From Candidatus Latescibacterota bacterium (GTDB lineage Bacteria > JAAXHH01 > JABIQT01): 12,635 bases of DNA. The notes below the pieces were generated by a model. The model saw only the letters and a list, made by a program, of their open reading frames with translations. It ran no database searches and was not told the origin of the DNA. The stretch lies in contig JABIQT010000042.1 in NCBI GenBank assembly GCA_018667995.1, forward strand, positions 1-12,635, in the 5' to 3' direction. Both the position numbers and the translations under genes were made by a program. Shown here piece by piece: positions 675-9,078 of this stretch (its first letter is position 1; each line of letters opens with the position of its first letter).

Positions 675-729
675 CAAGCCACAGGTATCCAGCGAGACCT
701 GCACTCCTTATCTAATCAGCGAGGTAAAA

Positions 730-1302
730 ATGGCTTGGATAAAAACCGTACCCTTGGCAGAGGCGGACGATCAACTTCGAGCAGCCATGGAAGCGCAGCA
801 TGCACTGTATCCTGAGGAATATGCGGAACCGACGTCGGCGGATCGCGGTGTCGATGAGGGAATCATATCGACGCACACATTGATTCCGGACGCGTTACAT
901 CATGCATTCGCGACATTTGGCTCGCTCATGTCCCCAGACCTGCCGTTGAGCCGGCGTCAGCATGAAATGATCACCACGGTTGTTTCCGCTACAAACAGAT
1001 GTGTTTACTGACTGGAATCACACGCAGAGTTTCTGCGTCGGGTTTCGCTGGATGAAGCGCTGGTCGAGGCGCTCAAATACGACTATGAAAACGCGGAGTT
1101 GAGCGAGAAGGACCGTGCTATGCTGGATTTTTCGATTCAACTCACGAAGGATGCAACGGGCATTACCAAGGAGCATCACGACCGTCTACGAGAAGCAGGC
1201 TTTGACGATACAGGAATCCTGCAGATCACGCTGATCGCGTCCTGGTTCAACTACATCAATCGAGTTGCAGATGGGCTAGGCGTAGGACGAGAGGATAGTT
1301 AA
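730..1302 (+). CDS. AhpD-like peroxidase-related selenoprotein (CxxU), TGA read as selenocysteine
   Basis: Read through one TGA at 1009-1011, this frame gives a 190-residue protein of the carboxymuconolactone decarboxylase/AhpD superfamily, closest to the uncharacterised peroxidase-related enzymes. The C-terminal half ([12 protein letters not shown]; then [15 protein letters not shown]) is typical of that family. The core is Glu79, Cys91, Sec94, His98. This spacing equals the Glu118-Cys130-Cys133-His137 relay of mycobacterial AhpD, so the TGA falls on the peroxidatic cysteine. Family members normally read NRCxYC here. The frame continues without indel and conserved on both sides, ending at TAA. 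The start ATG at 730 has GAGG at 721-724 with 5 nt spacing. Expected role: thiol- or selenol-based reduction of peroxides or disulfides in the cytoplasm; the substrate is unknown. A matching SECIS-like hairpin follows the TGA. Alternatives are a nonsense mutation or a sequencing error. The gene is alone on its strand, divergent from the GroES-like gene. An automatic caller would split it into 730-1011 and 1099-1302. Confidence 0.88.
1009..1011 (+). other. In-frame TGA, predicted selenocysteine codon (Sec94)
   Basis: TGA sits between the codons for NRCVY and LESH, at the second cysteine position of the AhpD CxxC motif. It is followed by C, a weak termination context. Most other genes in this window (for example those ending at 128, 1342, 2574, 2870, 7149, 7579, 10089, 11198 and 12430) use TGA as their stop, so a general code change to Trp or Gly does not explain it. 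Confidence 0.87.
1022..1038 (+). promoter_or_regulatory. Bacterial SECIS element (selenocysteine insertion hairpin)
   Basis: A perfect 6-bp stem ACGCAG (1022-1027) / CTGCGT (1033-1038) closes a 5-nt loop AGUUU. The hairpin is 17 nt long, begins 10 nt after the TGA, and has G at the second loop position followed by U. This agrees with the known bacterial SECIS design, in which SelB binds a short stem-loop placed about 11 nt after UGA with a G in the first two apical loop positions. It lies within the coding region and encodes His98-Arg103. The bulged U of the E. coli fdhF element is not present, as in many other bacterial SECIS elements. Confidence 0.8.
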
Positions 1303-7148: not shown

Positions 7149-7562
7149 TCAGCGGGCCGCCTGACTGTGGTCGGCATATTCTGCCGTGCATGTGGTGTGA
7201 ATTCCGCCACGCACGCGATAATCAGTCTTTACAGTCATATGTATAGGTTCGACGTACGCAACCAGATCGTTCAGAATTCGGCGCGTCACATGCTCCTGTA
7301 CCATTCCCACAGAACGATACGAGAGAAGGTAAAACTTGTATGCTTTAAGCTCCAGGCATTTCTGATCGGGTGTATACGAAATACTGACGGTAGCGAAATC
7401 TGGCAAACCAGTCCAAGGGCACATTGCTGTGAACTCATCGGTATCGATGACGATATCTAGTGACTGCCCCGGAAATTCATAGGGAAATGTCTCCAGGACC
7501 TCTGGCGTGAGCGCCTCTGCGCCGAGGAACTCGAACTGTTTTGTTCTTGGTTCTAGTGTCAT
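7149..7562 (-). CDS. queF: NADPH-dependent 7-cyano-7-deazaguanine reductase (preQ0 reductase)
   Basis: QueF reduces the nitrile of preQ0 to the amine preQ1, the last step before insertion into tRNA for queuosine. From the ATG at 7562 the product has 137 residues, a short single-domain (unimodal) form. The catalytic pair is visible as Cys48 in TAMCPWTG and Asp55 in LPDFA, with the 7-residue spacing of the Bacillus enzyme (Cys55/Asp62). The family signature LELKAYKFYLLSYR follows at about 70-83. The frame is open 33 codons further upstream, but that extension lies inside queE and lacks family similarity. The ATG at 7562 has AGGA a short distance upstream and begins 16 nt after the queE stop. 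It is the third gene of the queC-queE-queF run. Confidence 0.95.
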   Translation of the reverse strand: MTLEPRTKQFEFLGAEALTPEVLETFPYEFPGQSLDIVIDTDEFTAMCPWTGLPDFATVSISYTPDQKCLELKAYKFYLLSYRSVGMVQEHVTRRILNDLVAYVEPIHMTVKTDYRVRGGIHTTCTAEYADHSQAAR

Positions 7563-7578
7563 GTTGTTTTCCTGATTT

Positions 7579-8265
7579 TCATGTGCCACGTGTATTGCCG
7601 TATAGATCCAAATGGATGCGGGTACCGAAGCGAAAGCCGTGCTGAAGGCAAAGTTCTGCAATCCAGTGCGACTTCTCGGCGAATTGTTCCTTTGATACGC
7701 TCTGCGGCATTAGTAACACACGCGATCGATCCACGTTATGCAATTGAGCCAAGAGGGCCTCGATCTCAACCATGTCATCGGCAGTGTCTATTACGAATTT
7801 CAACTGATAGGGATACCGATCCATGAATGACTGCACCACGCTCGCATTGTCTCGAAGTGATTCATGGCGGTCGGCGAATTTTCCGCCCTCTTCCTTCCAA
7901 GGTGTCGAGTTGGACAGTTTGGGACTGATGGAGGCCAGGCTACATGAAATATCCTCGAATACGGTTCCTGCCGTTTCAACAGTTATATGATAGCCCTCGC
8001 CAGCTAGTGTCTCCGTCAAGCTCTTGATATCAGGGGATATCATCGGTTCCCCACCTGTGACGACCACATGCTGGGTATCATGTTTCCTGACGGCCCTTAC
8101 GATCTCATCGACACAGATGGCAGAGCCTTCCGACCGCCACGAAGTATATGGCGTGTCACACCAACGGCAACGAAGATTGCATCCTGATGTACGCACGAAA
8201 AACGAGGGAAGTCCTGCCAGCAGACCTTCGCCCTGTATGGAGTAGAATAGCTCAGATATCTGCAT
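7579..8265 (-). CDS. queE: 7-carboxy-7-deazaguanine synthase (radical SAM)
   Basis: QueE converts 6-carboxytetrahydropterin to 7-carboxy-7-deazaguanine by radical SAM chemistry. The 228-residue product starts with the family N-terminus ISELFYSIQGEG and binds a 4Fe-4S cluster through Cys29, Cys33 and Cys36 in GCNLRCRWCDT. The CxxxCxxC order is that of ordinary radical SAM enzymes. The SAM-binding TGGEP is at about 70-74. The start ATG at 8265 is chosen from this N-terminal match, since no strong ribosome site precedes it. It follows queC by 37 nt and precedes queF by 16 nt. QueD, which makes its substrate, is not in the window. Confidence 0.95.
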   Translation of the reverse strand: MQISELFYSIQGEGLLAGLPSFFVRTSGCNLRCRWCDTPYTSWRSEGSAICVDEIVRAVRKHDTQHVVVTGGEPMISPDIKSLTETLAGEGYHITVETAGTVFEDISCSLASISPKLSNSTPWKEEGGKFADRHESLRDNASVVQSFMDRYPYQLKFVIDTADDMVEIEALLAQLHNVDRSRVLLMPQSVSKEQFAEKSHWIAELCLQHGFRFGTRIHLDLYGNTRGT

Positions 8266-8302
8266 GGATCGGAATTCTAATCACCTGGTTTCGCACGCCA
8301 CG

Positions 8303-8992
8303 TTACACGGATTGGTATCTGGTTGGATCCGCGATACCCGCGTCCTCGAAACCCTTGAGACGTAAGAGACAGGAATCGCAACGTCCACAGGCGGCGCCAT
8401 CGTCCGCTGGCGCGTAACAGCTGTAGGTGTTCCGGTAGTCGACCCCTAATGCTACGCCAGTACGGATGATGTCGGCCTTCGCAAGAAGGAGCAATGGTGC
8501 ATGCACCCGGAACTGTCCAGCTGCTTCAACGCCAGCCTTGGTTGCAAGATTTGCCAGGCTCTCGAAGGCACTGATATATTCCGGCCGACAATCGGGATAT
8601 CCGCTATAGTCAACAGCGTTGGCGCCGAAGAAGATATCAAAGGCGCCCAGCACCTCCGCCCATCCCAGGGCTATGGACAAGAAAATCGTGTTCCGAGCGG
8701 GAACATATGTGGCCGGAATGTCCTCGGCCATATCTTCTGCGTTACGATCCGTCGGTACCTCCACGTCGTCGGTTAGTGCCGAACCGCCAATACCCCGCAA
8801 ATCTACGGGTACAGTCAGGTGACGCTTTACACTCATTCGCTCGGCGACCGCGGCGGATACCTGCAATTCGTACCTGTGTCGCTGACCATAGTCGAAACTG
8901 ATGGCGTAGCATTCAAAGCCGTCCCGCTGAGCCACCGCTAGAGTCGTTGTAGAATCTACACCCCCGCTGAGGAGGATGACTGCTTTTTTCAT
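8303..8992 (-). CDS. queC: 7-cyano-7-deazaguanine synthase (preQ0 synthetase)
   Basis: QueC makes preQ0 from 7-carboxy-7-deazaguanine, ATP and ammonia. From the ATG at 8992 the product has 229 residues. It starts [16 protein letters not shown], where SGGVDS (residues 9-14) is the PP-loop that binds ATP. Near the end Cys192, Cys202, Cys205 and Cys208 ([19 protein letters not shown]) form the zinc site of the family. FDYGQRH at about 34-40 is also characteristic. An in-frame TTG at 9055 would add 21 residues, but they are unlike the family and cover the transcription start region, so I use the ATG. Its ribosome site is weak. It is the first gene of the queCEF set, behind the promoter at 9071-9099. 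I see no preQ1 riboswitch core in the leader. Confidence 0.95.
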
Positions 8993-9048
8993 GATTACCC
9001 ATGGATCTGGGCGCACTGCACAGGCAAGTGAATACTGTGCTTTACGCC

Positions 9049-9078
9049 TTGACAAGATGACAGAGCACGCAATATATA
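9049..9078 (+). promoter_or_regulatory. Promoter for the PLP enzyme gene, overlapping the queC promoter
   Basis: On the plus strand a perfect -35 TTGACA (9049-9054) is followed after 18 nt by TATATA (9073-9078). An AATATA at 9071-9076 gives 16 nt spacing instead. Transcription would start near 9085, about 48 nt before the ATG at 9133. The two opposed -10 elements overlap in the AATATATA stretch, so the two promoters probably compete or act as one symmetric unit. Confidence 0.5.

Follow-up and report, generated by a model that had tools for sequence, protein, structure and literature searches.

We conclude that the gene at 730-1302 of the 12,635-nucleotide stretch of DNA analysed here (the window) is a genuine selenoprotein gene, in which UGA codon 94 is recoded to selenocysteine (Sec) and whose product is an AhpD-fold redox protein with Sec94 as the presumed attacking residue; we put the probability of this reading at about 96%. 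It draws on a TGA codon that is conserved among homologues, on cysteine at the equivalent position of more distant proteins, on constraint acting on an RNA hairpin just downstream, on three further TGA-bearing paralogues, and on SelA and SelD genes found in the organism's own genome. The features concerned are:

721-724, plus strand: possible Shine-Dalgarno sequence GAGG, 5' of the ATG at 730 (from the sequence)
730-1302, plus strand: AhpD-like (peroxidase-related, TIGR01926) selenoprotein gene, 190 amino acids from ATG to TAA with the TGA read as Sec
964-966, plus strand: codon for Glu79 of the AhpD proton relay (invariant in the alignments)
1000-1002, plus strand: codon for Cys91, the presumed resolving cysteine of CxxU (invariant in the alignments)
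1009-1011, plus strand: in-frame TGA for Sec94, the second position of the CxxU motif (from the homologue alignment)
1021-1023, plus strand: codon for His98 of the AhpD proton relay (invariant in the alignments)
1022-1038, plus strand: SECIS-like apical hairpin ACGCAGA-GTT-TCTGCGT (from frozen synonymous sites, the fold and a compensatory change in paralogues)

The TGA at residue 94 is the only in-frame stop between the ATG and the terminal TAA. A mechanical ORF finder ends the frame there, at 1011, and leaves an ORF of 93 amino acids; standard annotation would truncate the gene or label it broken. The read-through product, by comparison, keeps the relay spacing Glu79-Cys91-Sec94-His98 and matches the CMD/AhpD profile PF02627 with an E value of 2.5e-12. 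It also matches TIGR01926 (peroxid_rel) at 120.7 bits, against a curated cut-off of 81.8 bits, and this match extends over residues 36-187 and therefore lies on both sides of the TGA.

To place the codon in its family we scanned for homologues, taking one genome per species, and examined the best 80 of 252 confirmed relatives. These nearest loci share 63-77% identity with the window protein and carry the labels Acidobacteria, Latescibacterota, Gemmatimonadetes, Zixibacteriota and Pirellulales. Codon 94 is TGA in all 80, Glu79, Cys91 and His98 are kept in every one, and the protein downstream of the TGA is conserved to the TAA. The peptide patterns used in the search do not cover codon 94, and the uniform TGA is therefore not a product of ascertainment; within this best 80 of 252, the Sec form is widespread. 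Three more distant homologues, which are encoded on plasmids of Tsukamurella, Aminobacter and Deinococcus and are 28-32% identical, have Cys at position 94 in a CxYC motif. TGA is in ordinary use as a stop codon: it ends 8 of the 11 other genes in the window and is the terminal stop of this same gene in 25 of the 80 homologues, which indicates that it has not been reassigned.

The gene is one of four AhpD-like genes in its own genome, each with one TGA. The other three, L202 (G000:C484), L203 (G000:C749) and L204 (G000:C496), have Glu79, Cys91, TGA94 and His98 in register and a hairpin 3' of each TGA. Across 16 genomes of the same order, 34 AhpD-like matches (these four included) contain exactly one in-frame TGA apiece. 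An earlier note on this DNA, made from its letters alone, had proposed Sec in a peroxidase-related AhpD-like protein, with the TGA at the second Cys of a CxxC motif, an AhpD relay around it, family sequence continuing to a TAA, TGA as the usual stop codon nearby, a gene that standard annotation would lose or call broken, and Cys at residue 94 of the Cys homologues; our results bear out each of these points, the last through the plasmid-encoded proteins.

A hairpin lying just 3' of the TGA, with a G in its apical loop, is the mark of a bacterial SECIS element, and 1022-1038 has both properties: in the RNA (ACGCAGA-GUU-UCUGCGU) the loop opens with a G, 17 nt after the UGA. Among 76 non-redundant loci, codons +4 to +9 (CAC GCA GAG TTT CTG CGT) are used at 97, 100, 100, 100, 100 and 95%, respectively, as against a mean of 61% and a maximum of 92% for the commonest codon at 67 other conserved residues outside +1 to +14. 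Judged from these codon counts, protein constraint cannot explain the freezing at +4 to +9. As a single sequence the hairpin is unremarkable, its stability relative to shuffled sequences being weak (z -1.43). Orthologues show almost no variation in the stem, and we therefore looked to the paralogues for evidence of covariation. There, the C-G pair at positions 16 and 26 after the TGA is replaced by G-C in other paralogue groups, the G at the start of the loop is kept, and the offset of the hairpin from the TGA is identical. In the group formed by L194, L196, L197 and L203 the stem register is shifted, and only 4 of the 7 pairs are kept when these sequences are laid out in the register of the window's hairpin. 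With its codon-frozen hairpin, this gene is a clear-cut case on which to try out the annotation of selenoproteins.

In AhpD of Mycobacterium tuberculosis the relay consists of Glu118, Cys130, Cys133 and His137, and it is the second Cys of CxxC that attacks. The spacing 79-91-94-98 of the window protein is identical to this, and on that basis Sec94 would be the peroxidatic residue and Cys91 the resolving one. We envisage that UGA at codon 94 is read as Sec with the aid of the downstream hairpin, acting as a bacterial SECIS and bound by SelB carrying Sec-tRNA-Sec. In the protein, Sec94 would replace the attacking cysteine of CxxC, the Se-S bond would be resolved by Cys91, and protons would be relayed through Glu79 and His98. 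The product would most likely reduce organic hydroperoxides or a related electrophile, with a thiol as electron donor. That Sec is actually inserted in this organism, that the protein has this activity and where its electrons come from are what we infer from these comparisons. A predicted model of the protein (pLDDT 72) is likewise consistent with an AhpD fold: its nearest solved structures are the AhpD-like 6k40, 3c1l, 2prr, 2oyo and 2pfx, the first three being Foldseek matches at E values of about 1e-7.

The earlier note had reasoned that the organism must carry SelA, SelB, SelC (tRNA-Sec) and SelD, and had suggested searching the genome for the four genes. Two of the four, SelA and SelD, were found in this genome. 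SelD (L096:1393-2442, G000:C1058) is itself a selenoprotein, MAKTCGUAAK, with an in-frame TGA for the Sec of its CGU motif and a hairpin after that TGA, and a SelA with the PLP lysine is present, selA taking an unusual two-gene form. Profile and protein searches found neither SelB nor tRNA-Sec in the genome, G000, which is a MAG of 6.06 Mb in 1165 contigs and 85% complete; a full SelB from a relative, used as query, gave nothing better. The candidates for tRNA-Sec proved to be tRNA-Ser and tRNA-Leu, and the SelB candidates that we inspected to be other GTPases, namely an EF-Tu fragment (L094) and a CysN-like protein (L090). Most relatives of the same order have both genes, with SelB above cut-off in 14 of 15 and tRNA-Sec in 13 of the 14 searched (anticodon TCA in the four that were checked). 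In these relatives tRNA-Sec usually lies beside selB, at about 170 bases or less where both ends are known, and a single assembly gap would therefore explain why both are missing. We also note G011, rated 99% complete, which has SelB and TGA-bearing AhpD genes, yet neither form of SelA and no tRNA-Sec above cut-off.

The failure to find SelB and tRNA-Sec, together with the short ORF called by machine, is what could be said for taking 730-1302 as a pseudogene, or its TGA as a sequencing or assembly error for TGC or TGT. We regard that as almost certainly wrong: the same TGA occurs in the 80 independent homologues and again in three paralogues of the same genome, the protein beyond it is conserved to its end, and conservation of the codon across phyla refutes the idea. 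It is also very improbable that UGA is read here as another amino acid, such as Trp or Cys, through reassignment or nonsense suppression. We found no point in favour of this, and it is at odds with the use of TGA as a terminator both in the window and in the homologous genes, with Cys at the site in distant homologues, with the frozen SECIS-like hairpin and with the presence of SelA and SelD.

A further alternative accepts the selenoprotein and differs from our reading in the reaction only, the product then being an AhpD-fold thiol/selenol oxidoreductase that acts on another substrate than a peroxide. The TIGR01926 name rests on similarity only, the debrominase Bmp8 is a distant structural neighbour, and the retention of four paralogues suggests different substrates. 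The full Glu-Cys-Sec-His relay at AhpD spacing argues the other way, and we consider a non-peroxidase role a serious though somewhat doubtful possibility; a Sec94 peroxidase-related protein is the reading that we retain.

The two-gene selA deserves separate description. In the window's own genome the pair consists of SelA1 (L005:1474-2667, G000:C455) and SelA2 (L006:1170-2540, G000:C499); the sequences from relatives are L112-L123 and L126-L137. SelA1 is the strong match (PF03841, 446 bits) and starts directly at the catalytic core; it matches TIGR00474 from position 71 only and is without the N-terminal tRNA-binding domain. SelA2 matches TIGR00474 weakly over its full length, N-terminal domain PF12390 included. 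Both proteins occur together in 14 genomes of the order (its own and 13 relatives), and in none of these 14 did we find a full-length SelA with its lysine beside the pair. Thirteen SelA1 sequences each retain the equivalents of Aquifex Arg86, Asp284, Lys285, Arg312 and Arg315, and SelA2 has lost Arg86 and Lys285 in 14 of 14 and Arg312 in 13 of 14, counting G001 (83% complete), which has SelA2 and lacks SelA1. SelA1 thus has the full active site, and SelA2 is without the PLP lysine and the arginines that bind selenophosphate. In a tree, SelA1 forms one clade next to canonical SelA, and SelA2 sits on long branches whose placing is unsure. Several genomes of other phyla that have the same AhpD gene carry an ordinary one-chain SelA.

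A study of Helicobacter states that the N-terminal domain of SelA binds tRNA-Sec and that two dimers hold each tRNA, and it gives the missing domain as the hallmark of SelA proteins that do not make Sec (PMC4607533). The relatives examined here have SelB, tRNA-Sec and TGA-bearing genes, yet their SelA1 is without the N-terminal domain, and a mixed SelA1-SelA2 ring is therefore the simplest reading. We think it rather probable that Sec is made in this order by such a split synthase, in which one subunit would handle the tRNA and the other the chemistry. Our literature searches, covering titles and abstracts of open-access papers, showed no report of a split SelA. If it is real, it would be an exception to the published rule (PMC4607533) by which SelA proteins lacking the N-terminal domain make no Sec, and a conserved two-part SelA would mean that tRNA binding and catalysis need not share one chain.

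As for the surroundings of the AhpD gene, three neighbours were tested, and only a BNR-repeat gene is conserved; of the 80 loci, the one of the nearest relative (L009) has it and no other does. On the minus strand at 128-523 lies a divergently placed gene for a Cpn10/GroES-like protein of 131 amino acids, whose match covers residues 7-54 only, and none of the other 80 loci showed such a gene close to AhpD. Also on the minus strand, 7149-9055 appears from sequence matches to be a queuosine pathway cluster, with QueC (PF06508) adjoining a QueE-like radical SAM protein and, at 7149-7661, an ORF that looks QueD/QueF-like by eye.

The AhpD-like CxxU selenoproteins are already a known family, and 730-1302 is a further member of it. 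Their occurrence in marine metagenomes, of which the earlier note was aware, is documented: the Sargasso Sea study of 2005 (PMC1088965) reported 27 AhpD-like CxxU selenoproteins under COG2128, together with the family's bSECIS, the GOS study counted 299 of 'AhpD-like 1' (PMC2398784), and a 2026 review (PMC13188914) has an entry for AhpD-like, TIGR01926, CxxU that refers to the Sargasso paper. The window gene resembles these TIGR01926/COG2128 selenoproteins in its TIGR01926 match, its CxxU motif and its downstream bSECIS. Compared with the catalogued family, the gene is here placed in a lineage, which the labels of same-order genomes (Candidatus Latescibacterota, some Gemmatimonadetes) suggest to be Latescibacterota, the freezing of its hairpin is measured across phyla, and four paralogues are found in one genome. 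NF041238 (AhpD_rel_CFYUT, Sargasso hypothetical protein 1) is likewise an AhpD-related CxxU selenoprotein; the window protein scores 59 bits against its cut-off of 175 and falls outside it. The Cys-type peroxidase-related enzymes 3c1l, 2prr, 2pfx and 6k40 share family and predicted fold with the window protein, but are encoded by ordinary CxxC genes (CxYC in the three plasmid homologues), whereas the window gene has CxxU.
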